Shown here: piece after piece, positions 1 to 14,682 of the stretch | Position numbering within the stretch: position 1 is the stretch's first letter | How the letters are laid out: every line of letters begins with the position of its first letter | NCBI GenBank assembly: GCA_025698865.1 | Contig: JAILWQ010000001.1 | Span: 62,001-126,000 of the forward strand | Origin: Erythrobacter sp. | GTDB lineage: Bacteria; Pseudomonadota; Alphaproteobacteria; Sphingomonadales; Sphingomonadaceae | Length of the DNA stretch: 64,000 bases | Direction: 5' to 3' | The notes under the pieces: generated by a model | Seen by the model: the letters and a program-made list of their open reading frames with translations, nothing else | The model's database searches: none | Told to the model about the DNA's origin: nothing | Program-made: the position numbers and the translations under genes

Positions 1-184
1 TCCGCTCGAGGCGATGACCACGGTGACCGTCCAGATCGTGGCGATGCTTACCGGCGAGGGCAGCTTCGACCATCCCGCGACGCTCAGCGCCTTCGCGCTC
101 GGCTTCGTCCTGTTCATGGTGACGCTGGCGCTCAACTTCATTGCCCTGCGCGTCGTCAAGAGGTTCCGCGAAGCCTATGAGTGA
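1..184 (+). CDS. pstC: Phosphate ABC transporter permease PstC, C-terminal end (partial)
   Basis: This is the last 60 codons of an inner-membrane permease, read in the frame that starts at base 2 and ending with TGA at 182-184. The fragment shows a conserved permease end (EAMTTVTVQIVAM), one strongly hydrophobic helix (FALGFVLFMVTLALNFIAL) and a basic tail. PstC pairs with PstA to form the phosphate channel of the high-affinity PstSCAB importer. The identification leans on the next genes, because the diagnostic permease loop lies outside the window. Its stop overlaps the pstA start by 8 bases, which implies translational coupling. Confidence 0.85.
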   Translation, partial: PLEAMTTVTVQIVAMLTGEGSFDHPATLSAFALGFVLFMVTLALNFIALRVVKRFREAYE

Positions 185-1439
185 CAGTGCCGCCCCCACC
201 CGCGCGCCCACGCGGACCGAGGCTTTCGAGAAGCGCCTGAAAAAGCGCTACGCGTCCGAGCGGCGGTTCCGCCGGATGGGGCTGGGCGCGATCGTCTTCT
301 CGATCGTCGTTCTCCTGTTCCTGCTCGGCAACATGTCGATCAACGGGTTCGCCGGCTTCCAGCGCGCCGAGCTGGAAGTGCCGGTCGATTTCCGCGAGGC
401 GGGCCTGACGGGCGACCCGGCAGCCTTGGCGCAGCCCAATGCGGTCCAGAGCCTCGAGGCGCAGGGACTGCCGCAGGTCGTGGAGTTCTTCGCCGAGCAA
501 TCGCTGGGCGAGGAAGCGGCCGACCAGCTCGACCCGCAGGCCTGGCGCGAGGTTGCCGATGCGGTGATCGACGACCCTGCCATTCTGCGCGGCGAGACCA
601 CATTCTGGCTCCCCGCCAGCGCGGGCCTTGCGTCGGGTCTTGCAGGCGAAGGCGCGCAGGAAATCCGCCAGCTGGCGACGCAATTGGCGAACGACGGCAC
701 ACTCGCATCGCGGTTCGACCCCGGTTTTCTCGTGCGCTCGGATGCCACCAATCCGCAGCAGGTGGGCATCTGGGGGGCGCTCAAGGGCTCGATCCTGACC
801 ATGATCGTCACCCTGCTGCTCGCCTTCCCGATCGGCGTGCTGGCCGCGCTCTATCTCGAGGAATACGCACCCAAGAACCGCTGGACCGACATCATCGAGG
901 TTTCGATCAACAATCTGGCGGCCGTCCCCTCGATCATCTTCGGCCTGCTCGGCCTCGCCGTGTTCCTGTGGATCTTTCCCAACATGCGCTCGGCCCCGCT
1001 GATCGGCGGCATGACGCTCGCGCTGATGACGATGCCGGTCATCGTCATTTCCGGACGCAACGCGATCAAGGCGGTTCCGCCCAGCATCCGCGACGGGGCG
1101 CTGGCGATCGGCGCCTCGCCGGTGCAGGTGGCGTTCCACCATGTCCTGCCGCTGGCTCTCCCCGGCATCCTCACCGGCACGATCATCGGCATGGCCCGCG
1201 CGCTGGGCGAGACCGCGCCGCTGCTGCTGATCGGGATGCGCGCCTTCGTCGCCACTCCGCCCGACGGCTTCACCTCGCCCGCCACGGTTCTGCCAGTCCA
1301 GATCTTCCTCTGGTCGGATGAAATCGATCGCGGGTTCGTGGAACGGACCAGCGCTGCTATCATCGTCCTCCTGCTGTTCCTCCTGCTGATGAACGGCATC
1401 GCCATCTACCTGCGCAACAAATTCGAGAAGACCTGGTGA
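177..1439 (+). CDS. pstA: Phosphate ABC transporter permease PstA
   Basis: This is the second inner-membrane permease of the PstSCAB phosphate importer, 420 aa. ATG at 177 is preferred because it overlaps the pstC stop; an upstream in-frame ATG at 141 lies inside pstC. A basic cytoplasmic N-terminus is followed by a first membrane helix at about residues 34-53, a periplasmic stretch at about 55-195, and then the multi-helix permease core. The core holds the coupling loop ([20 protein letters not shown]). The protein is longer than E. coli PstA (about 296 aa) because of the periplasmic stretch, which matches the DUF3333-type N-terminus known in alphaproteobacterial PstA. Its stop overlaps the pstB GTG start. 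Confidence 0.95.
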
Positions 1440-2224
1440 CCGTAGTCCACGACAACCTCGAGAAGACCGAAGCCAAGATGCGGGCGAAGGACGTCTCCGT
1501 CTATTACGGCGCGAAGAAGGCGATCGACGACGTGTCGATCGACATCCCGACCGAATACGTCACGGCCTTCATCGGCCCGTCGGGCTGCGGCAAGTCGACC
1601 TTCCTGCGCACGCTCAACCGCATGAACGACACGATCCCCTCGGCCCGCGTCGAGGGATCGATCGAGCTCGACGGCGACGATATCTACTCCAGCGGCATGG
1701 ACGTGGTGCAGCTGCGGGCGCGAGTGGGCATGGTGTTCCAGAAGCCCAACCCCTTCCCCAAGTCGATCTACGAGAATATCGCCTACGGCCCGAAGATCCA
1801 CGGCCTCGCCGAAGGCAAGGACGAGCTTGACGCGGTGGTCGAACGCTCGCTTCGCCGCGCCGGCCTGTGGGACGAGGTCAAGGACCGGCTCCAGGACAGC
1901 GGCACCGCGCTTTCGGGCGGTCAGCAGCAGCGGCTGTGCATCGCCCGCGCCATCGCGGTCGATCCCGAGGTGATCCTGATGGACGAGCCATGCTCGGCGC
2001 TCGATCCCATCGCGACCGCCAAGATCGAGGAACTGATTGACGAGCTGAATGGCCGCTACGCGATCGTGATCGTCACCCATTCCATGCAGCAGGCCGCCCG
2101 CGTCTCGCAGCGCACCGCTTTCTTCCATCTTGGCAAGATGATAGAATATGGTCGCACCACCGACATATTCACGACCCCGCTCGAGCAGCGGACACAGGAC
2201 TACATCACCGGAAGGTACGGCTGA
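1436..2224 (+). CDS. pstB: Phosphate ABC transporter ATP-binding protein PstB
   Basis: This is the cytoplasmic ATPase that powers phosphate import through PstC/PstA, 262 aa. Walker [10 protein letters not shown] is at residues 47-55, the ABC signature LSGGQQQR at 159-166 and Walker B ILMDEP just after 180. The PNPFP and CSALDPIAT stretches are typical of PstB. GTG at 1436 overlaps the pstA stop (GTGA). An internal ATG at 1478 would also leave a complete ABC domain, so the N-terminal 14 residues are less certain. phoU follows after 2 bases, so pstC-pstA-pstB-phoU read as one operon. Confidence 0.96.
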
Positions 2225-2226
2225 GC

Positions 2227-2898
2227 ATGGAACACACGGTCAAGGCCTTCGACGAGGACATCACCAAGCTGCGCGGCCTGATCGCGGAGATGGGCGGTCT
2301 TGCCGAAGTCGCCGTCCAGGAATCCATGGACGCGCTGATCAAGGGCGACGAGGAGCTCGCTCAGAAGGTCATTCGCGGTGACAAGCAGATCGACGCGCTG
2401 GAAAGTCAGATCGACAAGCTCGCCGTGCGGATCATCGCCCTGCGCGCGCCGATGGCGGACGACCTGCGCGAAGTCATCGCCGCGCTCAAGATCGCCGGCG
2501 TGGTCGAGCGGATCGGCGATTATTCCAAGAACATCGCCAAGGCGAGCCGCGAGATCGGCGATGCCAACCGCAAGAAGTTCGAACCCCTCACCCTGCTCCC
2601 GGCCATGGCCGAGGTGGCGGCGGAAATGGTCCACGACGTCCTCACCGCCTATGCCGCGCGCGACGCGCAGCAGGCCCGCGAGGTCATCGCTGCGGACGAG
2701 CGGGTCGATGCCTTCTACAATTCGATTTTTCGCAATGTCGTCAGCCACATGGTCGAGAATCCTTCGACCATTTCGAGCGCGGCCCAGCTGCTGTTCGTGG
2801 CGCGCAATATCGAGCGGATCGGCGACCACGCGACCAATGTCGCGGAGATGGTCCATTTCGCGGCAACCGGAAATTACCCGGTGGACGACGATCTCTGA
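2227..2898 (+). CDS. phoU: Phosphate signalling complex protein PhoU
   Basis: This 223-aa all-helical cytoplasmic protein links the Pst transporter to the Pho two-component system and restrains the Pho response when phosphate is plentiful. Two PhoU repeats are visible, each with a conserved ERIGDYSKNIAK or ERIGDHATNVAEM motif; these acidic clusters bind metal in known structures. The length is normal for the family. It lies 2 bases after pstB and 71 bases before the preferred phoB start. No phoR kinase gene is visible in this stretch. Confidence 0.96.
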   Translation: MEHTVKAFDEDITKLRGLIAEMGGLAEVAVQESMDALIKGDEELAQKVIRGDKQIDALESQIDKLAVRIIALRAPMADDLREVIAALKIAGVVERIGDYSKNIAKASREIGDANRKKFEPLTLLPAMAEVAAEMVHDVLTAYAARDAQQAREVIAADERVDAFYNSIFRNVVSHMVENPSTISSAAQLLFVARNIERIGDHATNVAEMVHFAATGNYPVDDDL

Positions 2899-2969
2899 CA
2901 CGGAACTGTAGCCTGGCGGTCATACGAGGGTGACGAACCTTGGATAAACTTCGCCAGGACAAACCCCGC

Positions 2970-3656
2970 GTGACCGCTGCCAAACTGCTTCTGGTCGAGG
3001 ACGACCCCGCTCTTCTCGAACTGCTCGAATATCGTTTTCAGAACGAAGGCTACGACGTGCGCGCCACGCCCGACGGGGACGAGGCGATGGTCATGGCGGC
3101 CGAGGACGTGCCCGATCTCGTCATCCTCGACTGGATGGTCGACGGGACCAGCGGGATCGAGGTCTGCCGTCGTCTGCGCCGCGACAAGACGACCGCCCAT
3201 GTCCCGATCATCATGCTGACTGCGCGCGAGGCCGAGGACGATCGCATCCGCGGGCTCGACACCGGGGCGGACGACTACATCACCAAGCCCTTCTCTCCGC
3301 GCGAACTGATGGCACGGGTCGGCGCGGTCATGCGGCGCATCCGCCCGGCGCTTGCGGGCGAGACGGTCGAGGTCGGCGACATCGCGCTCGATCCGGTCGC
3401 GCACAAGGTCACGCGCCGCGGCAAGACGCTCCAGCTCGGCCCGACCGAATACCGCCTGCTCAAATTCTTCATGGAAAGCCCCGGGCGGGTGTTCAGCCGC
3501 ACCCAGTTGCTGGACGGGGTCTGGGGCACCGGCAGCGATATCGAGCTGCGCACGGTCGACGTCCATATCCGGCGCCTGCGCAAGGCGATCGAGATGCCCA
3601 ACGCCAAGGACCCGATCCGCACCGTGCGCAGCGCGGGCTACGCCTTCGAAGCCTGA
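2970..3656 (+). CDS. phoB: Phosphate regulon response regulator PhoB
   Basis: This OmpR-family response regulator, 228 aa from GTG 2970, activates Pho-regulon genes when phosphorylated. The receiver domain carries acidic VEDD near residues 9-12, phospho-acceptor Asp54 (VILDWM) and Lys in TKPF. The C-terminal winged helix shows the usual LGPTEYRLLKFFM and RTVDVHIRRLRKAIE signatures. The start is ambiguous. A TTG at 2940 with GAGGG upstream would add ten residues, while GTG 2970 has AGGA about 10 bases upstream and gives the usual PhoB N-terminus (MTAAKLLLVEDD). It follows phoU and may share its transcript. Confidence 0.93.
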   Translation: MTAAKLLLVEDDPALLELLEYRFQNEGYDVRATPDGDEAMVMAAEDVPDLVILDWMVDGTSGIEVCRRLRRDKTTAHVPIIMLTAREAEDDRIRGLDTGADDYITKPFSPRELMARVGAVMRRIRPALAGETVEVGDIALDPVAHKVTRRGKTLQLGPTEYRLLKFFMESPGRVFSRTQLLDGVWGTGSDIELRTVDVHIRRLRKAIEMPNAKDPIRTVRSAGYAFEA

Positions 3657-4409: not shown

Positions 4410-7400
4410 CTAGTGAAAGTCCCGCGAGGCCGGGAGTATCCGGGGAATGATTCTTGCATTGCGCGGATGGCCGTCCGATTGCGGACCATGGAAGCCGCAT
4501 TCGCGATTGCCGGCGGGCGGTTCCTCCCACGGTTCGACGGGCTTGTAGGGATCGTCCGCCCCCTCACGCAGATTGTCGCGCGGATTGAGCTTGCCCGAAG
4601 ACGAGGACGGCAGCGGCGAGTTCACGTGATCGGCACGCGCGACCGGCGCGTTGAGCATGTCGTCCGACAGGCGGTAGAGCTCGTGGCTGGCATCGTTCAT
4701 GTGCTGGGCGATGACGTGGATCACCTCGTCGTCATACTCCACCCGGCCGCGCACCTCCATCAGCCGGGCGCCCATCACCACGCGCCGCTGCTTCTCCTTG
4801 AGATCGGGCCAGACGACCAGATTGACCACGCCGGTCTCGTCCTCCAGCGTGATGAAGCAGACCCCCTTGGCCGAGCCCGGCCGCTGGCGGATCAACACCA
4901 CGCCGGCGACATGGACCACCGAGCGGAATTTCCTATCGCGCAGATCGCAGGCGCGCACGAAGCCACGCTCGGCAAGGCCGGCGCGCAGGAACGCCATCGG
5001 ATGCGCTTTCAGGCTGAGGCGCGTAGTCTGGTAATCGGCGACCACCTCTTCGGAGAGCGGCATCGCCGGAAGCTGCGTGCGCGTCTTCTCCGCCCCCTCT
5101 TCACGCGCCGCCGCTGCGGCGAAAAGCGGCAGGTCGGGCGCGTTCACCAGACTGCGCGCGTCCCACAGGGCCTGCCGCCGGGAAAGCCCCAGCGATCCGA
5201 AAGCATCGGCCTGCGCGAGCCGCTCGACATGCGAAGGCGATATCCCCGTACGATCCCGCACGGCCCTTACATCGCGGTAGGGACCATGCTCCTCGCGCTC
5301 GCCCACCAGCCTCGCCGCCACCGCTTCGGGAAGTCCGTCGATCTGGCGCAGGCCGAGGCGAAGGGCGACACGCCCGTCCTCCTGTGAGGGCATGACGTCA
5401 GTTTCTTCCAGCGTGCAGTCCCATCCTGACAGATTGACGTCAGCCGGCAACACTTCCACGTCGTGCTCCACGGCGTCCCGCACGATCTGCGCCGGAGCGT
5501 AGAAGCCCATCGGCTGCGAATTGAGCAGCGCGCAGGCGAAGGCCGCCGGGTAATGGCATTTGAGCCAGCTCGAGACATACACCAGATGCGCGAAACTCGC
5601 CGCGTGGCTTTCGGGAAAGCCGTATTCACCGAAGCCCTTGATCTGATTGAAGCAGCGCTCCGCGAATTCAGGATCGTAGCCGCGCGCGATCATCCGGCCG
5701 ACCATCTTGTCCTGATGCTCATCCACCATGCCGCGGCTGCGGAAGGTCGCCATCGCCCTGCGCAACTGGTTCGCTTCCACGGGCGAGAACTTGGCAGCGT
5801 CGAGCGCGATCTTCATCGCCTGTTCCTGGAAGATGGGGACGCCGTAGGTGCGCTCCAGAATGGAGGAGAGCTCGTTCGCCGGGCCGTGCTCCGGCGAGGG
5901 GCTCGGCAGGTGGAAATCGGTGTGCCCCTCGCGCGCACGCCGCCTCTGCTTGAGATAGGGGTGCACCATGTCGCCCTGGATCGGGCCCGGCCGCACGATG
6001 GCCACTTGCACAACGAGATCGTAGAAAATGCGCGGGCGCAGCCGGGGGAGCATGTTCATCTGCGCCCGGCTTTCCACCTGGAACACACCCAGCGAATCCC
6101 CCTTGCACAACATGTCGTAAGTGGCGGAATCCTCACGCGGCAGAGTGGCCAGAGTCAGCGGCCGCGCGTGATGCTCTTCGAGCAGGCCAAAGCATTTCCT
6201 TATGCAGGTCAGCATTCCCAGCGCGAGCACATCCACCTTGAGGATGCCGAGATCGTCGATATCGTCCTTGTCCCATTCGATGAAGCTGCGATCGGGCATG
6301 GCCCCGTTGCCGATCGGCACGGTTTCGGTCAGCGCTCCGTCAGTCAGGATAAAACCACCGACATGCTGCGAAAGATGTCGCGGCATTCCAATCATTTGCT
6401 CGGTGAGTTTCAGAACACGCCGGAGATGCGGATCGGTCACGTCCATACCCGTTTCGGCCGCGTGCCGATCGCTGATTTCCTTGCCCCATCCGCCCCACAC
6501 CGTCTTGGCGAGCGAGGCCGTGACATCCTCCGTCAGGCCCATCGCCTTGCCGACCTCGCGGATCGCCATGCGCGGGCGGTAATGGATCACCGTGGCGCAC
6601 AGTCCGGCACGGTGGCGACCGTATGTATCGTAGATGTGCTGAATCACCTCTTCGCGCCGTTCGTGCTCGAAATCGACGTCGATATCGGGCGGCTCCTTGC
6701 GTTCTTCGGAGATGAAGCGGTCGAACAGCAACTGGTGCTCGGCCGGATCGACTGAAGTGATGCCGAGGCAGTAACAGACCGCCGAATTGGCCGCGCTGCC
6801 GCGCCCCTGGCACAGGATCGGCGGCTTCGCCTGATAGCGCGCGAAATCGACGATATCCTTGATCGTGAGGAAATAGCGGGCGAGGTCGAGCTTCGCGATC
6901 AACGCCAGTTCGCGTTCCAGGGTCTCGGCGATATGGTCGGGCACGCCCGAAGGATAGCGATCCTGCGCGCCCCACCATGTCTCGCTTTCCAGAAATTCCT
7001 GCGGCGTCATGCCGTTGGGATATATTTCCTCCGGATATTCGTAGGTTAGCTCATCAAGCGAGAACTGAGATGCATCCGCCACCGCACGCGCAGCGGCAAT
7101 GGCATGGGGCCAGCGGTCGAACAGGCGGATCATGGTTTCGGGCGGCTTGAGATAGCGTTCGGCATTGCCATGCAGCAGATGGCCCGCTGCGGCGACGGTG
7201 GTCTTGTGCCGGATCGCCGTCATCACATCCTGCAACGGCCGCCGGTCGGGTGTGGCGTAATGCACGTCGTTGGTGGCGAGGATCGTGAGGCCGTTCGCCC
7301 TGGCCAGCGCGTCGAGCCGTTCGATGTGCACGACATCGTCGCCGGTGTGGAGATAGCTTGCAGCAATATGGCGCAATGCCGGGAGACGGTCTGCGATATG

Positions 7401-8018
7401 CGGTACAAGATGTTCGAAAGGCTTGGTTATTTCATGCGTGCCCAGCGGAGCGCGGACCAAGTCTTCCTCCGCATCCACACACGATCTTCCGGATGGAAAC
7501 GCGACCACATTGCTCGGCACTGCTAGGGTGAAGCACTCGTCGAGATCGCGTGGCGGCAAGAGGATCAGCTGCACATCGCCGCTGTGTTCGGCCAGCATGG
7601 CGAGCGTGATGTCGCACTGCCCCTTGGCCTGCCACTTGTCGTCGAGCGTGGACATCCGCCCGGCGCTGATAAGCTTGCACAGCCTGCCATAGGCCGCGCG
7701 GTTCCGCGGGTACGCGAGGAAGGCCAGACCCTCGACAGTCTCTATCCGGGTCCCGATAACCGGTTTCAGTTTCAGCTTTTTCGCTTCGGTGTGGACACGC
7801 ACCACCCCGGCCATGGTGTTGGCATCCGCGATCCCGACCGCATCGTAACCGAGCTCGTAAGCCCGCTCGACGATGTCCACCGCATCCGATGCGCCGCGCA
7901 GGAAGCTGAAGCAAGAAACCAGGCCCAGTTCGACGAAGGGAGCGCGCGCCGGCGGGTCGATCGTATCCGGATCGACGGCCAGCGTACGCTTGGGTATCTG
8001 ATGGTCGTTTTCTGGCAT
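4410..8018 (-). CDS. dnaE2: Error-prone DNA polymerase DnaE2
   Basis: This is a C-family translesion DNA polymerase of 1202 aa. An N-terminal PHP domain (CFSFLRGASDAVDIVERA, GIADANTMAGVVR) is followed by the polymerase core with catalytic PDIDVDFEHERR at about 444-455 and a further Asp in the LGILKVDVLALG segment. Then come a helix-hairpin-helix region, an OB fold (VVHVAGVVLIRQRPGSAKG) and the diagnostic DnaE2 tail ending RDFH. The ORF is intact. DnaE2 acts with ImuA and ImuB in SOS mutagenesis; those two genes lie about 4 kb away in their own operon. The gap to udgX upstream is 56 bases and holds no LexA box, so transcription most likely comes from the boxed promoter at 10767. Confidence 0.97.
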   Translation of the reverse strand: MPENDHQIPKRTLAVDPDTIDPPARAPFVELGLVSCFSFLRGASDAVDIVERAYELGYDAVGIADANTMAGVVRVHTEAKKLKLKPVIGTRIETVEGLAFLAYPRNRAAYGRLCKLISAGRMSTLDDKWQAKGQCDITLAMLAEHSGDVQLILLPPRDLDECFTLAVPSNVVAFPSGRSCVDAEEDLVRAPLGTHEITKPFEHLVPHIADRLPALRHIAASYLHTGDDVVHIERLDALARANGLTILATNDVHYATPDRRPLQDVMTAIRHKTTVAAAGHLLHGNAERYLKPPETMIRLFDRWPHAIAAARAVADASQFSLDELTYEYPEEIYPNGMTPQEFLESETWWGAQDRYPSGVPDHIAETLERELALIAKLDLARYFLTIKDIVDFARYQAKPPILCQGRGSAANSAVCYCLGITSVDPAEHQLLFDRFISEERKEPPDIDVDFEHERREEVIQHIYDTYGRHRAGLCATVIHYRPRMAIREVGKAMGLTEDVTASLAKTVWGGWGKEISDRHAAETGMDVTDPHLRRVLKLTEQMIGMPRHLSQHVGGFILTDGALTETVPIGNGAMPDRSFIEWDKDDIDDLGILKVDVLALGMLTCIRKCFGLLEEHHARPLTLATLPREDSATYDMLCKGDSLGVFQVESRAQMNMLPRLRPRIFYDLVVQVAIVRPGPIQGDMVHPYLKQRRRAREGHTDFHLPSPSPEHGPANELSSILERTYGVPIFQEQAMKIALDAAKFSPVEANQLRRAMATFRSRGMVDEHQDKMVGRMIARGYDPEFAERCFNQIKGFGEYGFPESHAASFAHLVYVSSWLKCHYPAAFACALLNSQPMGFYAPAQIVRDAVEHDVEVLPADVNLSGWDCTLEETDVMPSQEDGRVALRLGLRQIDGLPEAVAARLVGEREEHGPYRDVRAVRDRTGISPSHVERLAQADAFGSLGLSRRQALWDARSLVNAPDLPLFAAAAAREEGAEKTRTQLPAMPLSEEVVADYQTTRLSLKAHPMAFLRAGLAERGFVRACDLRDRKFRSVVHVAGVVLIRQRPGSAKGVCFITLEDETGVVNLVVWPDLKEKQRRVVMGARLMEVRGRVEYDDEVIHVIAQHMNDASHELYRLSDDMLNAPVARADHVNSPLPSSSSGKLNPRDNLREGADDPYKPVEPWEEPPAGNRECGFHGPQSDGHPRNARIIPRILPASRDFH

Positions 8019-8074
8019 GGTGCGAGATCGCCCCTCGGCCTATCATTGCGAGCCTCGCGTGAAGCCATCCGGCC

Positions 8075-9520
8075 TCATGCCTGCAATTCTTCCAACCGCT
8101 CCCGCACTGCGGCGAGATCGGCGTCGAACAGGCGGGATTGTTCGTCGCGCGCCGCGCCGTCGAGCCGCAGGAGATAGGACGGGTGCGCCGTGATCCACAG
8201 CTCGCTGCCATCCTCGAGCGGGATCGGTGCACCGCGTGCCTTGGAAATGCTCACCGTCTTGCCCAGCATACCGCGCGCCGCGCTGGCACCCATCGCCAGC
8301 ACCAGTCTGGGCTGCACGATCGCGCGCTCACTTTCGATCCACCAGCGACAGGTGTCGATTTCCTTCGCACCCGGCGACTGGTGCAGCCGCCGCTTGCCGC
8401 GCTGGACATATTTGAAATGCTTGACCGTGTTCGTGACATAGGCCGATCCGCGATCAATCCCGGCCCGTTCGAGATGCTGGTCCAGCAATTGCCCGGCCGG
8501 GCCGACAAAGGGCTTTCCCGCCTGATCCTCCTGATCGCCCGGCTGCTCGCCGACGATCATCAACGCGGCATCGCGCGGACCTTCGCCCATCACCGCCTGA
8601 TTATCGAGCTCCCCGATCGGACATTTGCGGCAGGCATGGATCGCCCTGTCGATCGCCGCCAGCGTTTCGGGTCGTTCCTCGAATTCGAGCGTTCCTGCCT
8701 CGACCATCGTGCTCTCCCGCTTCTGTGCGCCTGCCACGAGCTCGGGAATGAGCGCGGCCTCGGGCATATTCTTCCAGTATTTCCGGGGCATCTCCTTGAG
8801 CATTGCCCCGATCTTCAAACGCGCGGGGTTGAAGATGGACGCGTAATAGCTGCGCCACAGATCCTCCATCGGATCGCCGCCGGGCGCATTGGACCGCTCG
8901 GCCGGCGGACCTTCGCGCATGGTATCGGTGTCCCAGTGCAGGCTCCCCTGCGGCGTGAGGATCGACCAGTGCATGTTGGCGAAACGCCGCATGAAGAAGC
9001 CGGCATTGGCGCGCAGGATGTGATGCTCGGGCTCGAACCAGGCGACGTAATGTTCGCGCAGTTCGCCATCCTCGCTCTCTTCCTCGATCAGGCGGAAACG
9101 GACGAAGGCGTGCATCTTGTGGCTGTCGCGCCGGACGTTCTTGTCGAGCTCCTCCATGCGGCGCACGTCGGGATCGGCCTTGTCCTCCATGATCCGCGGA
9201 CTAGACTGGAGCCGCCACAGCAGCCGATAGAGCAGCGCGAAGCGGTCAGGGTCGGAATGGAGGATCGCGTTCTTCGCCAGACTGACGAAGCGGCGGTTGG
9301 CCCGCACGGGCCGTGCGCCTTCCTCGGGCATCGGGCTGCGCCTCTCGCCATGCGCGAACAGATCGCCACTGCCCCCCGGCTCGATCCAGGCGATCCGGTC
9401 GGGCGGCACGTCGCACTGGACCAGAGCCCGCGCCCGCTCCCGCCAGAACTCGAAATCGTCCGGCTCCGGCATCTCCACCACATAATAAGTGCCGGCCTCG
9501 ACATGTTGGAGCACCGTCAT
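8075..9520 (-). CDS. udgX: UdgX-family uracil-DNA binding protein with N-terminal DUF4130 domain
   Basis: This 481-aa two-domain protein has a DUF4130 domain in the first roughly 260 residues (SDPDRFALLYRLLWRL, ILTPQGSLHWD) and a uracil-DNA glycosylase fold after about residue 290. The glycosylase part shows motif A GEQPGD at 324-329, the Cys pair CRKC at 297-300 with a further Cys391 (iron-sulphur candidates), the loop KRRLHQSP at 376-383 and AHPS near the end. In characterised UdgX proteins the His of this KRRxH loop forms a covalent bond to the deoxyribose after uracil excision, so the protein stays cross-linked to DNA. His380 is the equivalent here. Its start overlaps the radical SAM stop (ATGA), so the two are co-translated. 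Confidence 0.93.
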   Translation of the reverse strand: MTVLQHVEAGTYYVVEMPEPDDFEFWRERARALVQCDVPPDRIAWIEPGGSGDLFAHGERRSPMPEEGARPVRANRRFVSLAKNAILHSDPDRFALLYRLLWRLQSSPRIMEDKADPDVRRMEELDKNVRRDSHKMHAFVRFRLIEEESEDGELREHYVAWFEPEHHILRANAGFFMRRFANMHWSILTPQGSLHWDTDTMREGPPAERSNAPGGDPMEDLWRSYYASIFNPARLKIGAMLKEMPRKYWKNMPEAALIPELVAGAQKRESTMVEAGTLEFEERPETLAAIDRAIHACRKCPIGELDNQAVMGEGPRDAALMIVGEQPGDQEDQAGKPFVGPAGQLLDQHLERAGIDRGSAYVTNTVKHFKYVQRGKRRLHQSPGAKEIDTCRWWIESERAIVQPRLVLAMGASAARGMLGKTVSISKARGAPIPLEDGSELWITAHPSYLLRLDGAARDEQSRLFDADLAAVRERLEELQA

Positions 9521-10764
9521 GCCGCGAACAGCTCGAGCTGCTCGGTCCGGGGCGCAAGCATGCTGCGAAGGTCGGCGCGATCGGTCAGCATCACGGGGCG
9601 CCAGTCGACCGTGCAGATGAACGGCCGCACCTTGGTGATCGAAAGGGTCAGACGCGCCACATCGTCGAGCCGCAGCGTGCGGTGGCGCCGGCTCGCGAGG
9701 ATCTTGTGGACCGCCTTCACCCCCAGCCCGGGCACGCGCAGCAATTGTTCCTTGGTCGCGCGGTTGACGTCGACCGGAAAGCTGTCGCGAAACTTGAGCG
9801 CCCAGGCGAGCTTGGGATCGATGTCGAGCGGCAGATTGCCGTCCGCCTCCGTCGCCTGCATCACCTCGGCCGGCTTGTAACCGTAGAAGCGCATAAGCCA
9901 GTCGGACTGGTACAGGCGGTGCTCGCGGATCAGCGGCGGACGCTTCAGCGGCAACACGGCGCTTGCATCGGGGATCGGGCTGAACGCGCTGTAATAGACC
10001 CGGCGCAGACGGAAATTGTCGTAGAGCCTGCTCGCCTTGCCCACGATATCCGCATCAGTCGCCGCATCGGCCCCGACTATCATCTGCGTCGACTGCCCGG
10101 CAGGCGCGAAGCGCGGAGCGTGGCGGAACCGCTTCTTCGCATCCTTCGCCTCAACGAGATCGCTTCTCACCTTGCCCATCGCGCCTTCGATCTGGCGGGC
10201 GTCTTTGTCGGGCGCGAGGCGGGTCAGACCGGCATCGGTCGGCAGTTCGACATTGATCGAGACGCGATCGGCATAAAGCCCCGCCTGATGGACGATTTCG
10301 GCATCCGCTTCGGGAATGGTCTTGAGATGGATATAGCCGCGAAAATCGTGCTCTTCCCGCAGGATGCGAGCGACTTCGACGATTTGTTCCATCGTGTGGT
10401 TCGAGTTCTTGACGATACCAGAGGAGAGGAACAGCCCCTCGATATAATTGCGCCGGTAGAAGGCGAGCGTCAGATCGACGACCTCCTGCGGCGTGAACCG
10501 GGCGCGCGCCACGTTCGAGCTCTTGCGGTTGACGCAGTAATGGCAGTCGAACACGCAGTGATTGGTCAGCAGGATCTTGAGCAGCGAGATACAGCGTCCG
10601 TCCGGCGCGTAGGCATGACAGATTCCCATCCCCTCGGTCGAGCCGATGCCTTTTGCCGATCCCAGCGAATTCTTCTTCGCCGTGCCGGACGAGGCGCAGG
10701 ACGCATCGTATTTCGCCGCATCGGCGAGAATCTCGAGCTTTTGAAGGATGGTCTGCGAAGCCAT
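9517..10764 (-). CDS. Putative DNA modification/repair radical SAM protein
   Basis: This 415-aa radical SAM enzyme has the cluster-binding CVFDCHYC (Cys70, Cys74, Cys77). Further Cys/His lie just upstream (GMGICHAYAPDGRC), and the core carries IHLKTIPEADAEIV and SINVELPT. A helix-hairpin-helix DNA-binding segment (LRVPGLGVKAVHKIL) is near the C-terminus. The family is known to pair with DUF4130/UdgX proteins and is annotated as a putative DNA repair enzyme; the actual reaction is unknown. It is first in the minus-strand operon with udgX (4-base overlap) and probably dnaE2. A LexA box begins 3 bases upstream of the ATG and contains the ribosome-binding AAGGA. Confidence 0.93.
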   Translation of the reverse strand: MASQTILQKLEILADAAKYDASCASSGTAKKNSLGSAKGIGSTEGMGICHAYAPDGRCISLLKILLTNHCVFDCHYCVNRKSSNVARARFTPQEVVDLTLAFYRRNYIEGLFLSSGIVKNSNHTMEQIVEVARILREEHDFRGYIHLKTIPEADAEIVHQAGLYADRVSINVELPTDAGLTRLAPDKDARQIEGAMGKVRSDLVEAKDAKKRFRHAPRFAPAGQSTQMIVGADAATDADIVGKASRLYDNFRLRRVYYSAFSPIPDASAVLPLKRPPLIREHRLYQSDWLMRFYGYKPAEVMQATEADGNLPLDIDPKLAWALKFRDSFPVDVNRATKEQLLRVPGLGVKAVHKILASRRHRTLRLDDVARLTLSITKVRPFICTVDWRPVMLTDRADLRSMLAPRTEQLELFAA

Positions 10765-10766
10765 AT

Positions 10767-10781
10767 GTTCCTTATATGTTC
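10767..10781 (-). promoter_or_regulatory. LexA box (GTTC-N7-GTTC) of the radical SAM/udgX/dnaE2 operon
   Basis: The top strand reads GTTC-CTTATAT-GTTC, an exact match to the direct-repeat LexA site of alphaproteobacteria. It starts 3 bases upstream of the radical SAM start codon. Read on the coding strand it contains AAGGA, which serves as the Shine-Dalgarno sequence. LexA binding would therefore cover the 5' end of the transcript and the ribosome-binding region. No other such site was seen upstream of udgX or dnaE2. Confidence 0.88.
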
Positions 10782-11375: not shown

Positions 11376-12203
11376 GTGCCCAACCTCACCACCCGTGACG
11401 GAACCCGTCTTCGCTACAAGGAGCTGGGCCAAGGCCGCCCGGTGATCCTGATCCATGGCTGGCCTCTTTCGGCCGACAGTTGGGACCCGATCATGATGAA
11501 GCTGGCCGATAACGGCTATCGCGCGATCGCTTACGACCGCCGCGGTTTCGGTCGCTCCGACCACGCGCCTTCGGGTTACGACTACGATACGTTCTCCGAC
11601 GATTTGGCCGACGTCATGAAGGAAACCGGCGCGACCGAGAACGTCGCCTTGGTCGGCTTCTCCATGGGCGGCGGCGAGATTGCCCGCTACATGTCGCGCC
11701 ATTCGGGCAAGGGGGTGACGCAGGCAGTGCTGGTCAGCTCTGTCATGCCTTACATGCTGAAGACCGACGACAATCCGGACGGCGTGCCGCAATCGACCTT
11801 CGATGAGATGACCGAAGGGATGAAAACCAACTTCCGCCATTTCTTCACCGGCTTCTTCAAGGATTTCTACGGTGACGGCGTTCTGCGTGACAAGGTGTAC
11901 GACGAAGAGAAGCACTGGGCCTGGATGACCACGATGATGGCCAGCCAGTATGCAACGCTCCAGTCCGCCGCCGCTTTCGCCACCACCGATTTCCGCCCCG
12001 ATCTGCCGAGCTTCAACGTACCGACCTTGGTGATCCACGGCACCAAGGACGAGACCGTGCCGATCGATGCGACCGGACGGCAGGTTGCCGAGAAGGTGCC
12101 GGGCGCCACCCTGATCGAGTACGATGGCGAGCCGCATGCCGTCTTCGCCACGCAGACCGAACGGTTGGGTGACGATCTGCTCGATTTCCTCGGACGAAAC
12201 TGA
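11376..12203 (+). CDS. Alpha/beta hydrolase, non-haem haloperoxidase-like
   Basis: This 275-aa alpha/beta hydrolase has the oxyanion HGW at 27-29, nucleophile elbow GFSMGG at 94-99 (Ser96), acid Asp in HGTKDETVP and His in GEPHAVF. The overall layout (MPNLTTRDGTRLRYKELG start, YDRRGFGRSD) matches the cofactor-free chloroperoxidase/arylesterase group. The true substrate cannot be told. CAGGAG lies upstream of the ATG. It shares a strand with the PilZ gene before it but has its own 89-base leader, and it ends 54 bases before the convergent imuB stop. Confidence 0.92.
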   Translation: MPNLTTRDGTRLRYKELGQGRPVILIHGWPLSADSWDPIMMKLADNGYRAIAYDRRGFGRSDHAPSGYDYDTFSDDLADVMKETGATENVALVGFSMGGGEIARYMSRHSGKGVTQAVLVSSVMPYMLKTDDNPDGVPQSTFDEMTEGMKTNFRHFFTGFFKDFYGDGVLRDKVYDEEKHWAWMTTMMASQYATLQSAAAFATTDFRPDLPSFNVPTLVIHGTKDETVPIDATGRQVAEKVPGATLIEYDGEPHAVFATQTERLGDDLLDFLGRN

Positions 12204-12257: not shown

Positions 12258-13886
12258 TCAGGCGCATAATCCGTGGAGATACCAGTCGGGCGCCCCACCC
12301 CGCCCGTCGCCGATCAGGCCCTGCCTGTATATCCAGTAGCGGCGGCCCGTCTCGTCCTCGATCCGGTAGTAATCGCGCAGGCGCGCATTGCCGCGTTCGC
12401 GCCACCATTCGGGCGCGATCCGCTCCGGCCCCTCCACTCGGGCCACTTCATGCACCGCGCCGCGCCAGCGGAAGCGCTTGGGATAGCCGTCGGGCGTGGC
12501 GTAGAGCACGGCGATACGCTCACTTTTCTCCAGCATCTTCAGCGGTCTGTAATGGAATTCGAAGACTTCCTGCGAAGTCCGCTCCGGCTCCAGTGGCGGC
12601 TGCCATCGCTGTGCGCGTTCGGGGATGTGGCTGGCAAAGGGCACCGGGCGGCGAACCGCTTTCGCGCCCAGCCTGACGGCGAGCCGGTCGATGCAGGTCG
12701 CGAGCGAGGTGCCGTGATACGCCGCCGCGGCCTCGAAATCCGACTGTTCCAGCGAAAGCGGCTCGGCCCAGCTTGCTCGGAGGCGCACCATCTCGATGCC
12801 GAACCCCGCATCGACATTGTCCAGGCGCGAGGAGAACAGCCGGCACATATGATCGGCATCGCGCGTGGCAGCGGCGAATTCGAGACGGCGCAGCACCACC
12901 TCCCCATCGACTCGCCACAGGCCCAGTTCGAGCCGCCGCGCGCCCTCCTCCCGGCCTTCGAGTTCGCGCACCATGTCGAGCGCAAGGTCGTGCATCACCT
13001 GATCGAGCAGCGCGCGATGGCGAATCGGTTCCATCAACCGGCGCTGGACCAGCGGCATCTGTCGGGGAATGACCGGCAACAGAGGTTCGGGAACGCGGCC
13101 GAGGAGCTGGTCAAGGCGGATCAGCGGATTGGCGGCAGGCGATCGGCGATTGCGAAAACGGCGCTGGATCGCGTCACGTCCGCCGCCCCCGTCCTGAACA
13201 GCGGTCAGTTCGCCGAGCCGCTTGAGGCCGAGACGGCGGAGCACCCCCGTCACATCCTCGTCGAGCCGCAGCGCCGCCACCGGCAGGTCGGCAAGGCGTG
13301 CCGTCATGTCATGGACATCGTCCAGTATCGTGCGTTCGGGCCCGAAATGCGCCAGAGCCCAGGCGGCGCCGGCAGTCGGCGCGATCGCGCTGCGGATCGC
13401 CAGATTGCGCCGTGCAAAGGCTGCATGGACATCGGCCAGCAATCGCTCCTCGCCGCCGAACAGGTGCGGCACGGCGGTAACGTCGACCAGCAGACCGTCG
13501 GGCGCGTCCATCGCCGACCATGGCCCCCAGCGCATCGCCCAGACCGCCAGCTTCTCGAGAAAGTCCCTATCGCCGGCCGGATCGTAGAGTGCGGTAACGA
13601 TGCCGGGGCACAGGGTGCGGGCATCGGCCAGCATCATGCCGCGCCCCGCGCCCGCCGCTGCGCCGGCCACGCTCACCGCCTCGATGCGCGGGCCGTGCGC
13701 CGTATCGGCGATGAGAACGAGCGGGCGTGGATCGTCGAGCGCATCGTTGACCGCTCGCCAGCGATCCATCGCCAGAGAGCGGAGCCAGATGGAGAGGATA
13801 CGGCGCGATCGGGTCTGCGGCCTGTCCTCGCCCACCACTGTCCCCAGCTCTAGCCTTCTCCCTGCTCCCTCCGCTGCCGCGGTCAT
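12258..13886 (-). CDS. imuB: ImuB, catalytically inactive Y-family polymerase-like protein of the SOS mutasome
   Basis: This is a 542-aa Y-family polymerase homologue that serves as the scaffold of the ImuA-ImuB-DnaE2 mutasome. The N-terminus (RRILSIWLRSLAMDRW) occupies the place where active Y-family enzymes carry catalytic acidic residues, and the usual acidic residues are not seen there. The middle shows GRGMMLADARTLCPG and the ADLPVAALRLDEDV palm/fingers pattern. The tail contains the ImuB C-terminal segment (FRWRGAVHEVARVEGPERIAPEWW). ATG 13886 overlaps the imuA stop (ATGA); a longer reading to 14417 runs inside imuA and was not used. It is co-transcribed with imuA under the LexA box at 14668. 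Confidence 0.93.
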   Translation of the reverse strand: MTAAAEGAGRRLELGTVVGEDRPQTRSRRILSIWLRSLAMDRWRAVNDALDDPRPLVLIADTAHGPRIEAVSVAGAAAGAGRGMMLADARTLCPGIVTALYDPAGDRDFLEKLAVWAMRWGPWSAMDAPDGLLVDVTAVPHLFGGEERLLADVHAAFARRNLAIRSAIAPTAGAAWALAHFGPERTILDDVHDMTARLADLPVAALRLDEDVTGVLRRLGLKRLGELTAVQDGGGGRDAIQRRFRNRRSPAANPLIRLDQLLGRVPEPLLPVIPRQMPLVQRRLMEPIRHRALLDQVMHDLALDMVRELEGREEGARRLELGLWRVDGEVVLRRLEFAAATRDADHMCRLFSSRLDNVDAGFGIEMVRLRASWAEPLSLEQSDFEAAAAYHGTSLATCIDRLAVRLGAKAVRRPVPFASHIPERAQRWQPPLEPERTSQEVFEFHYRPLKMLEKSERIAVLYATPDGYPKRFRWRGAVHEVARVEGPERIAPEWWRERGNARLRDYYRIEDETGRRYWIYRQGLIGDGRGGAPDWYLHGLCA

Positions 13887-14665
13887 CGTCCCGCCGCGGA
13901 GGGACGTGTCCGTGGCAGTCCCGCCGACGATCCGTGCGCTTCGGTCTCCGCGCTTCCGGCGCGCTCTGCCAGCAGGCGGCTTTCCTCGCCGCGCAGAACC
14001 CATTGTCCGGGCGCATGACCGCGTGCGCGAAAAAGCTCGGCCCGCCATGACGGCGTTCCCGGCGCAGTGGCGTTCCAGCGCGGGGCGGGCGACGGGCTCG
14101 CCACCACATCCCACCGCATTCGCGCCGAAGACAGGTCGTGCGCGGCGTCGAGGCGGACGAGATAGAGCGGCACGCCATGCCGCTCCGCCGACAGTGTCAG
14201 GCGGCGCGAGGCAGTGAAATCCAGCGCCTTGGGATTGCCCGCCATCTCGCCGATCACGAAAGCGATCTCGTGGCAGCGCACCCCTTCCTCCAGAGCGAAC
14301 AGCGCATCTTCCGTCTTTTCCGCAAGAACGTGGATCACCCGGTGGCGCAGATCGCGTGGCAGGCCGGGCCGATAGGGAATGCCGCCGATCCGCACCGCCT
14401 CGCGTGTCTGCACCCACAGCACCGCGCGGCGATCCTCCGCCTCCTGCCCTTCCCCGCGCGGGGCATGGCGCCAGTCGTCGAGCGCAAGTGCGAGCGCCGC
14501 CCCCGCGCCGCTCGCCTCCCGCCCTGAAGCGAAGATCTCGCTATGACACGGCGCACCCTGCATTGCGGCCAGACCGGTTTGCCAGCGAGTGCTGCGCCGC
14601 GCTGCCAGAGCGGCCACGTCGCAGGTCTGCGAGAGAGTTTCGAAGGGCATGGCGGAACGACTCAT
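13883..14665 (-). CDS. imuA: ImuA, RecA-like SOS mutagenesis protein
   Basis: This 260-aa protein resembles the RecA/SulA-like ImuA of the DnaE2 mutasome. Visible stretches are GGIPYRPGLP, IAFVIGEMAGNPKALDFTASRRLTLSAERHGVP and the C-terminal SAARMRW-type region (SSARMRWDVVASPSPAPRWN). No convincing Walker A is seen, as is usual for ImuA. The start is either ATG 14665, whose Shine-Dalgarno AGAAG lies inside the LexA box, or ATG 14650 five codons later. Its stop overlaps imuB by 4 bases. Its position directly after a LexA box supports damage induction. Confidence 0.9.
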   Translation of the reverse strand: MSRSAMPFETLSQTCDVAALAARRSTRWQTGLAAMQGAPCHSEIFASGREASGAGAALALALDDWRHAPRGEGQEAEDRRAVLWVQTREAVRIGGIPYRPGLPRDLRHRVIHVLAEKTEDALFALEEGVRCHEIAFVIGEMAGNPKALDFTASRRLTLSAERHGVPLYLVRLDAAHDLSSARMRWDVVASPSPAPRWNATAPGTPSWRAELFRARGHAPGQWVLRGEESRLLAERAGSAETEAHGSSAGLPRTRPSAAGR

Positions 14666-14667
14666 TT

Positions 14668-14682
14668 GTTCTTCTTATGTTC
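14668..14682 (-). promoter_or_regulatory. LexA box (GTTC-N7-GTTC) of the imuA-imuB operon
   Basis: The top strand reads GTTC-TTCTTAT-GTTC, an exact alphaproteobacterial LexA repeat that starts 3 bases upstream of the imuA ATG. Its position relative to the start codon equals that of the box at 10767-10781. Both sites overlap the presumed ribosome-binding site. Confidence 0.88.

Follow-up and report, generated by a model that had tools for sequence, protein, structure and literature searches.

Conserved linkage of a radical SAM–UdgX gene pair to the error-prone polymerase gene dnaE2 in Erythrobacter and related bacteria

A 64,000-nt stretch of Erythrobacter sp. DNA (hereafter the window, whose positions are used for all coordinates) carries a compact array of three genes on the minus strand, in which the gene for a radical SAM protein (rSAM) is followed by udgX, encoding a fusion of DUF4130 with a uracil-DNA glycosylase (UDG) domain of the UdgX type, and by dnaE2 (also called imuC), encoding an error-prone C-family DNA polymerase. 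An exact LexA-type box directly precedes the array, which recurs, with the genes in the same order and on the same strand, in 23 of the 80 genomes of the same family that contain both rSAM and DnaE2, and a second, differently organized linkage of the same genes is present in Bradyrhizobium-like bacteria. We propose, at what we consider even chances, that rSAM, DUF4130-UdgX and DnaE2 constitute one SOS-induced ‘capture and bypass’ unit. In this scheme, LexA cleavage after DNA damage would switch on the three genes together, and the rSAM–DUF4130 pair would act by radical chemistry on the damaged base. The UdgX domain would remove uracil, bond through the histidine of its R-loop to the abasic sugar and shield the site from cutting. 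Filling or bypassing the blocked stretch would then be left to DnaE2, brought by ImuA and ImuB from the SOS unit nearby, with mutations as the price.

Gene order and predicted SOS control

The rSAM gene (9517-10764) is assigned by TIGR03916 (574 bits, cut-off 343.5), which we take to correspond to COG4277, and by Pfam Radical_SAM; its product is 96% identical to a protein of an Erythrobacter metagenome-assembled genome and 94% identical to that of Qipengyuania vulgaris. It overlaps by 4 nt with udgX (8075-9520), the product of which matches TIGR03915 over residues 20-255 and TIGR03914, the UdgX family, over residues 257-472, both above cut-off (319 bits against 189.95 for TIGR03914). After 56 nt follows dnaE2 (4410-8018; 1202 aa; NF004225, 1380 bits, cut-off 939), which is without a separate box. 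An exact GTTC-N7-GTTC box, GTTCCTTATATGTTC (10767-10781, minus strand; GAACATATAAGGAAC on the gene strand), ends 2 nt before the rSAM ATG at 10764 and contains AAGGA, the apparent ribosome-binding site of this gene.

In order of transcription, the minus strand reads box, imuA, imuB, second box, rSAM, udgX, dnaE2, with a plus-strand alpha/beta-hydrolase gene (11376-12203; Pfam Abhydrolase_1, 1.5e-34) lying between the imuA-imuB pair and the rSAM unit. The imuA-like gene (13883-14665, minus strand; 260 aa, a RecA/SulA-type mutasome accessory protein) matches NF033429 weakly (21.8 bits, cut-off 150); the main grounds for the assignment are that the gene precedes imuB and that relatives have tblastn matches in front of imuB. 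Its own box, GTTCTTCTTATGTTC (GAACATAAGAAGAAC on the gene strand; 14668-14682, minus strand), is likewise exact and ends 2 nt before the gene. The imuB gene (12258 to about 13850, minus strand, start codon uncertain), which encodes a Y-family-like mutasome protein and is matched by tblastn in relatives, contains the Pfam domains IMS and DUF6504, as scored on the open reading frame 12258-14417. The imuA-imuB-dnaE2 cassette of the window is not uninterrupted: rSAM-udgX, the second box and the hydrolase gene separate imuB from dnaE2.

The rSAM, udgX and dnaE2 genes are likely to be read as a single SOS-induced transcript, because dnaE2 has no box nearby and, in the linked loci, follows udgX tightly. 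In 9-kb neighborhood scans of the 23 linked family loci, the 1 kb upstream of dnaE2 is always free of exact boxes (in L063, L071 and L075 an exact box lies inside the udgX coding sequence, more than 1 kb from dnaE2). The udgX-dnaE2 gap is 1 nt in 12 of these loci and at most 15 nt in 18, which places the 56 nt of the window at the loose end of the range. A promoter scan returned no sigma-70-like sites and a terminator scan four terminator-like sites against 6.4 expected, none of them in the 56 nt before dnaE2, both scans being uninformative for this organism; one terminator-like site lies on the gene strand inside the start of udgX (9503-9490). An earlier note on the same DNA had described the box over the rSAM ribosome-binding site, the 4-base overlap and the 56-base gap before a dnaE2 gene lacking its own box. 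These observations are correct to the base, and the joint SOS control that it predicted is, as a prediction, well supported by the conserved box, the tight spacing and the lack of a dnaE2 box. Overlooked were imuA and imuB, which belong to the same cassette, the box at 14668-14682, the DUF4130 half of the udgX product and the hydrolase gene.

The LexA-type box is conserved in position

Occurrence of the bare motif was dropped as evidence, since its count in the window is at chance level and the motif is common genome-wide: the window contains two GTTCN7GTTC sites where 1.48 are expected, a count attained in 46 of 100 shuffles, and the 3.16-Mb genome contains 117 against 47 for the reversed control. 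The box at rSAM is taken to be more than chance because of its conserved position. Of 97 loci, a set consisting of the window and 96 alphaproteobacterial loci, most of them from one family, 94 (all but L047, L106 and L115) have an exact box no more than 45 nt from the rSAM start. The same holds for 78 of 80 named loci (all but L213 and L221), which are nearly all sphingomonads by title and share some organisms with the first set. For comparison, the background of exact boxes is 47 in 1,062,718 bases (0.044 per kb). Over the two sets together, the box ends exactly 2 nt before the rSAM start in 123 of 177 loci. The genome encodes lexA (TIGR00498, 174 bits), the ATG of which is preceded, at 47 nt, by an exact box, and an exact box is found near imuA in 21 of the 22 linked loci with an imuA match.

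A narrower pattern with an A/T-rich spacer end, GTTCN4WWTGTTC, which was picked only after inspecting the genome list of bare-motif sites, has 15 sites in the genome versus none in the reversed control; besides imuA and rSAM, the genes behind these sites, recognized from their translated starts, presumably include uvrA, radA and an mmcB-like gene. Outside the class, 14 of 20 non-alphaproteobacterial loci have the palindrome CTGTN8ACAG, the LexA box form of other proteobacteria, within 60 nt of the rSAM start. The rSAM promoter of the window carries the GTTC-N7-GTTC box of the alphaproteobacterial LexA regulon, to which LexA would be expected to bind. As a separate observation, two identical boxes, GTTCGCTATATGTTC, stand 13.6 kb apart in one contig (G000:C20:391376-391390 and 405004-405018; L012 and L013), with no clear gene start close behind them.

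Distribution of the linkage

Among 119 genomes of the family, rSAM is present in 82, DnaE2 in 107 and both in 80. In the 23 linked genomes, the rSAM and DnaE2 matches are separated by 1.53-1.80 kb, the place of udgX; in one further genome (G401, locus L139), imuA-imuB-rSAM runs into a contig end, and the linkage is cut off, not absent. The 80 named loci comprise 37 linked, 37 unlinked and 6 that contig ends make undecidable. Linked loci include those of Tsuneonella, Porphyrobacter, Erythrobacter, Croceicoccus, Aurantiacibacter, one of several Qipengyuania and some Novosphingobium, and unlinked ones include those of Sphingomonas, Sphingobium and other Novosphingobium.

In a sample of the class, rSAM scores above the cut-off in 18 of 289 genomes and, of the 17 loci besides the window, only L048, from the same family, has DnaE2 in the fetched stretch. 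In a sample of the phylum, rSAM occurs in 63 of 329 genomes. Of its 21 loci outside the class, 20 were opened, together with 20 more from Alphaproteobacteria; DnaE2 is present in four of these alphaproteobacterial loci and in none of those outside the class. DnaE2 is present in 55 of the 63 phylum genomes with rSAM (hand tally) versus 80 of the 266 without it (Fisher p 6e-17, kinship uncorrected). Conversely, rSAM is seldom found without DnaE2 (2 of 82 family genomes and 8 of 63 phylum genomes). The module is also carried by plasmids: rSAM is present in 158 plasmid records, and of the four regions inspected, those of Agrobacterium vitis, Azospirillum and Caballeronia have UdgX after rSAM and no polymerase annotated within 9 kb; the fourth, from Ensifer, carries no annotation.

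Probable origin of the linkage within the mutasome cassette

Twenty unlinked dnaE2 loci, out of 84 such genomes of the family, were examined. Every one of them has imuB directly next to dnaE2 and no box in the 400 nt preceding dnaE2; an imuA match is present in 18. Linked loci have the order imuA, imuB, rSAM, udgX, dnaE2, with 45 to 6,287 nt between imuB and rSAM, a distance that stays below 100 nt in 7 of 57. This arrangement is most simply explained by entry of the rSAM-udgX module, together with its box, between imuB and dnaE2, because these two genes are adjacent in all 20 unlinked loci and rSAM closely follows imuB in those seven linked ones.

In a DnaE2 tree of 56 rows, the linked loci form one clade except for a single nested unlinked row, L152 (two changes). 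The genome of L152 (G244), with its linked-clade DnaE2, is without rSAM, and only 3 nt separate its imuB from dnaE2. The rSAM tree of 168 rows shows a more scattered distribution of the linked state, requiring 18 changes; we read this as repeated loss or replacement of the dnaE2 gene beside rSAM-udgX, repeated gain also being possible. Two long-branch unlinked sequences, L142 and L159, were kept in the 56-row tree and left out, along with L080, of the tree that includes the Bradyrhizobium-like DnaE2s. L082 is missing from the DnaE2 trees owing to an in-frame stop in dnaE2: in this locus (G323), the dnaE2 gene beside rSAM-udgX contains an in-frame TAG, which possibly denotes a decayed polymerase or a sequencing error. 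Two stretches of DnaE2, residues 162-200 and 1143-1177 in window numbering, occur in the majority of DnaE2s from linked loci and in few from unlinked ones; the second of them directly precedes the conserved C-terminal tail.

The four alphaproteobacterial loci of the phylum sample that contain DnaE2 all fall into a single family (code f160), and one of the four, L272, encodes a UdgX with 93% identity to that of a Bradyrhizobium sp. Among 80 genomes of this family, rSAM occurs in 17, all of which also contain DnaE2. In 10 of the 17, rSAM-udgX is divergent from imuA-imuB-dnaE2, and in each of these 10 loci the units lie on either side of a single exact box located 72-99 nt ahead of rSAM; in the seven unlinked loci of the family, the box is 0-19 nt before rSAM. 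The DnaE2s of the divergent loci form a clade apart from the linked clade of sphingomonads. Since both the layout and the DnaE2 lineage differ, these loci suggest that the linkage of rSAM-udgX to DnaE2 arose a second time in Bradyrhizobium-like bacteria.

Features of the encoded proteins

The UdgX domain of the window has the motif A GEQPG and the R-loop KRRLH, which aligns with KRRIH, including H109, of Mycobacterium smegmatis UdgX; the corresponding histidine of the window protein is His380. Its motif B reads HPSYLLR, as in most relatives, against the published HPS(S/A)(L/V)(L/V)R, keeping His, Pro, Ser and Arg, with Tyr in place of Ser/Ala. A UDG domain is present in all 27 linked loci examined, and in the alignment a histidine occupies the cross-linking position in all 64 UDG domains from linked loci and in 121 of the 123 from unlinked ones. 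The window UdgX is predicted to cross-link covalently to uracil-DNA. A natural variant of the R-loop, KRRLN, with Asn for the cross-linking histidine, is found in L102 and L172 (Qipengyuania sp. YIM B01966). The model of the DUF4130-UdgX fusion has a mean predicted local distance difference test score (pLDDT) of 81.3 and a predicted template modeling score of 0.47, with pLDDT below 50 at R-loop residues 376-379 and 381-384; among the matches listed, a structure search with this model yielded only matches to the UDG half, and the DUF4130 half was barely tested by it.

DUF4130 has a match in the fetched stretch of 91 of the 97 rSAM loci; of the remaining six, L062 and L139 end inside rSAM, and L091, L108, L110 and L124 have none in about 3.5 kb downstream. 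In rSAM itself, the CX3CX2C cysteines C70, C74 and C77 are invariant in 38 aligned sequences, and the C-terminus contains a helix-hairpin-helix (weak Pfam HHH_3 match). Cysteines 23, 49 and 58 are also invariant in this alignment and could hold an extra iron-sulfur cluster. No match of rSAM to the spore photoproduct lyase (SPL) family was obtained in NCBIfam at E 0.001, and its AlphaFold2 model (mean pLDDT 54.5) is too poor for a fold comparison with SplB.

Downstream of the operon, on the plus strand (141-3656), the window contains a pst-pho phosphate-uptake cluster (ABC permease with DUF3333, ATPase, PhoU and PhoB). In L048, PhoB and an extensin-like gene come at the same place after the operon.

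Relation to known systems

Like the imuA-imuB-dnaE2 (imuABC) cassette of Caulobacter crescentus, the window has the three genes in one region under LexA-type boxes, with DnaE2 above the family cut-off; it differs in that rSAM-udgX and its box, as well as the opposite-strand hydrolase gene, split the cassette, dnaE2 becoming the third gene of the rSAM unit. The pairing of rSAM with UdgX, which the earlier note rightly called known, has also been reported to be under SOS control: the available passages of PMC8565304 describe LexA-type control of a two-gene COG1573-COG4277 (UDG/rSAM) operon in Bacteroidetes, cite SOS control of such a UDG system in Verrucomicrobia and Alphaproteobacteria, and list imuA-imuB-dnaE2 as another member of the same SOS network. 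The same two protein families stand under a LexA-type box in the window, with the difference from the operon of those passages that the predicted transcription unit runs on into dnaE2 and that a UdgX-type domain, fused to DUF4130 and possessing the cross-linking histidine, makes up the UDG half. From M. smegmatis UdgX (PDB 6ail and others) the protein differs in having KRRLH instead of KRRIH, Tyr in motif B and the N-terminal DUF4130 fusion; the chemistry of UdgX and the idea that it protects abasic sites are set out in passages of PMC10359453.

In the excerpts at hand from PMC3765255, DUF4130 is described as an enzyme with a predicted relation to mutagenesis and an association with SplB-like radical SAM proteins and UDGs, and the domains found in the window are already connected with SOS mutagenesis by gene neighborhood, in a network that includes ImuB-C and SRAP. 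Those excerpts list ImuB-C with SplB-like rSAM and do not describe rSAM-udgX-dnaE2 operons or a shared divergent box. A UDG-type domain is also tied to a C-family polymerase in the DnaE-UDG fusion featured in part of PMC3919608; there the UDG replaces the OB and C-terminal domains within the polymerase, whereas the window UDG is encoded by a gene distinct from that of the polymerase. In short, the components, their regulation by SOS and a conjecture about their function have been published before. No description of the physical link of rSAM-udgX to DnaE2 was found in the literature searched, which omits most subscription papers.

One pathway or shared regulation

Among several possible explanations of the linkage, we tentatively place capture and bypass first. 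A more far-reaching reading, which we consider less likely than not, is that rSAM-DUF4130-UdgX is a true added part of the ImuABC mutasome, namely, a self-sacrificing uracil/abasic clamp with a radical repair enzyme that would hand blocked sites over to DnaE2. It would have been recruited at least twice, by insertion in Erythrobacteraceae and Novosphingobium and through a shared divergent box in Bradyrhizobium-like bacteria. Shared regulation, with two independent SOS functions that are neighbors because one box serves both and no common pathway, is also possible and comes close behind capture and bypass, because LexA would co-induce the two units even when they are unlinked. Indeed, the strongest counter-argument to a common pathway is that most family genomes with both genes (57 of 80, of which contig breaks may hide a few linked ones) show no linkage. 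There the units stand apart and have separate boxes, found in 71 of 74 unlinked rSAM loci and, near imuA, in 17 of 18 unlinked loci with a match to that gene. Box sharing would by itself suffice to produce the divergent Bradyrhizobium-like layout, and the lineage of L152, which looks like a loss of the inserted module that left the cassette contiguous again, gave up rSAM-udgX yet retained imuA-imuB-dnaE2. What shared regulation accommodates poorly is that two separate linkages involve the same polymerase cassette among all SOS genes available, that rSAM-udgX was inserted in the cassette despite already bearing its own box, and that rSAM is so rarely found without DnaE2.

Several further observations weigh against coupling of capture and bypass. 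The linkage is inherited within each group, which leaves about two events, not dozens, and it is seen in none of the 20 non-alphaproteobacterial loci. Co-occurrence is weakened in the phylum by the uncorrected kinship and in the family by the frequency of DnaE2 regardless of rSAM; 27 of the 107 family genomes with DnaE2 do not have rSAM. Because many loci outside the linked groups have DUF4130 without a UDG domain (12 of 20 non-alphaproteobacterial loci, as well as L046, L050 and L055, where DUF4130 stands beside rSAM), UdgX is not the core of the module, the rSAM–DUF4130 pair being its usual core. Finally, SRAP/HMCES proteins shield abasic sites, and SRAP, as another such shield, is present in 88 of the 119 family genomes and 22 of the 23 linked ones (hand tally). 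The idea that UdgX replaces SRAP was dropped in view of this co-occurrence. The suggestion of the earlier note that mutagenic bypass and uracil trapping are one pathway therefore gains from the second linkage and from co-occurrence, loses by the unlinked majority and by the many genomes with DnaE2 and no rSAM-udgX, and stays an inference.

Two other explanations assign a different part to UdgX or to its partner. It is unlikely, in our judgment, that UdgX serves as an anti-mutator, cleaning up uracil or other wrong bases inserted by DnaE2 and thereby limiting mutations: the authors of PMC8565304, in the passages available, do propose that SOS UDGs address misincorporation by error-prone polymerases, and UdgX is specific for uracil according to the portion of PMC10359453 at hand, but a protein that stays bound to its product makes a one-shot capture and cannot clean many sites, and the sequence gives no pointer to the anti-mutator direction over bypass. 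We rank last, as improbable, that rSAM-DUF4130 is the real partner of the polymerase, reversing a lesion that would otherwise need DnaE2, much as spore photoproduct lyase acts on the thymine dimer, with UdgX as an add-on. Persistence of the pair in the loci without a UDG domain agrees with such a role; the UDG domain, with its histidine, in every linked locus examined does not, and no SPL family in NCBIfam matched this rSAM at E 0.001.

Implications

If capture by UdgX and bypass by DnaE2 are coupled, as the capture and bypass proposal holds, the operon would be the counterpart in bacteria, assembled from unrelated components, of the shielding of abasic sites by SRAP/HMCES proteins, and the way in which DnaE2 mutagenesis is modeled would change. 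A conserved operon that places rSAM and udgX with a mutagenic polymerase under what is probably the same damage switch offers, in these bacteria, a concrete place to seek a udgX phenotype, namely, SOS-induced, DnaE2-dependent conditions.

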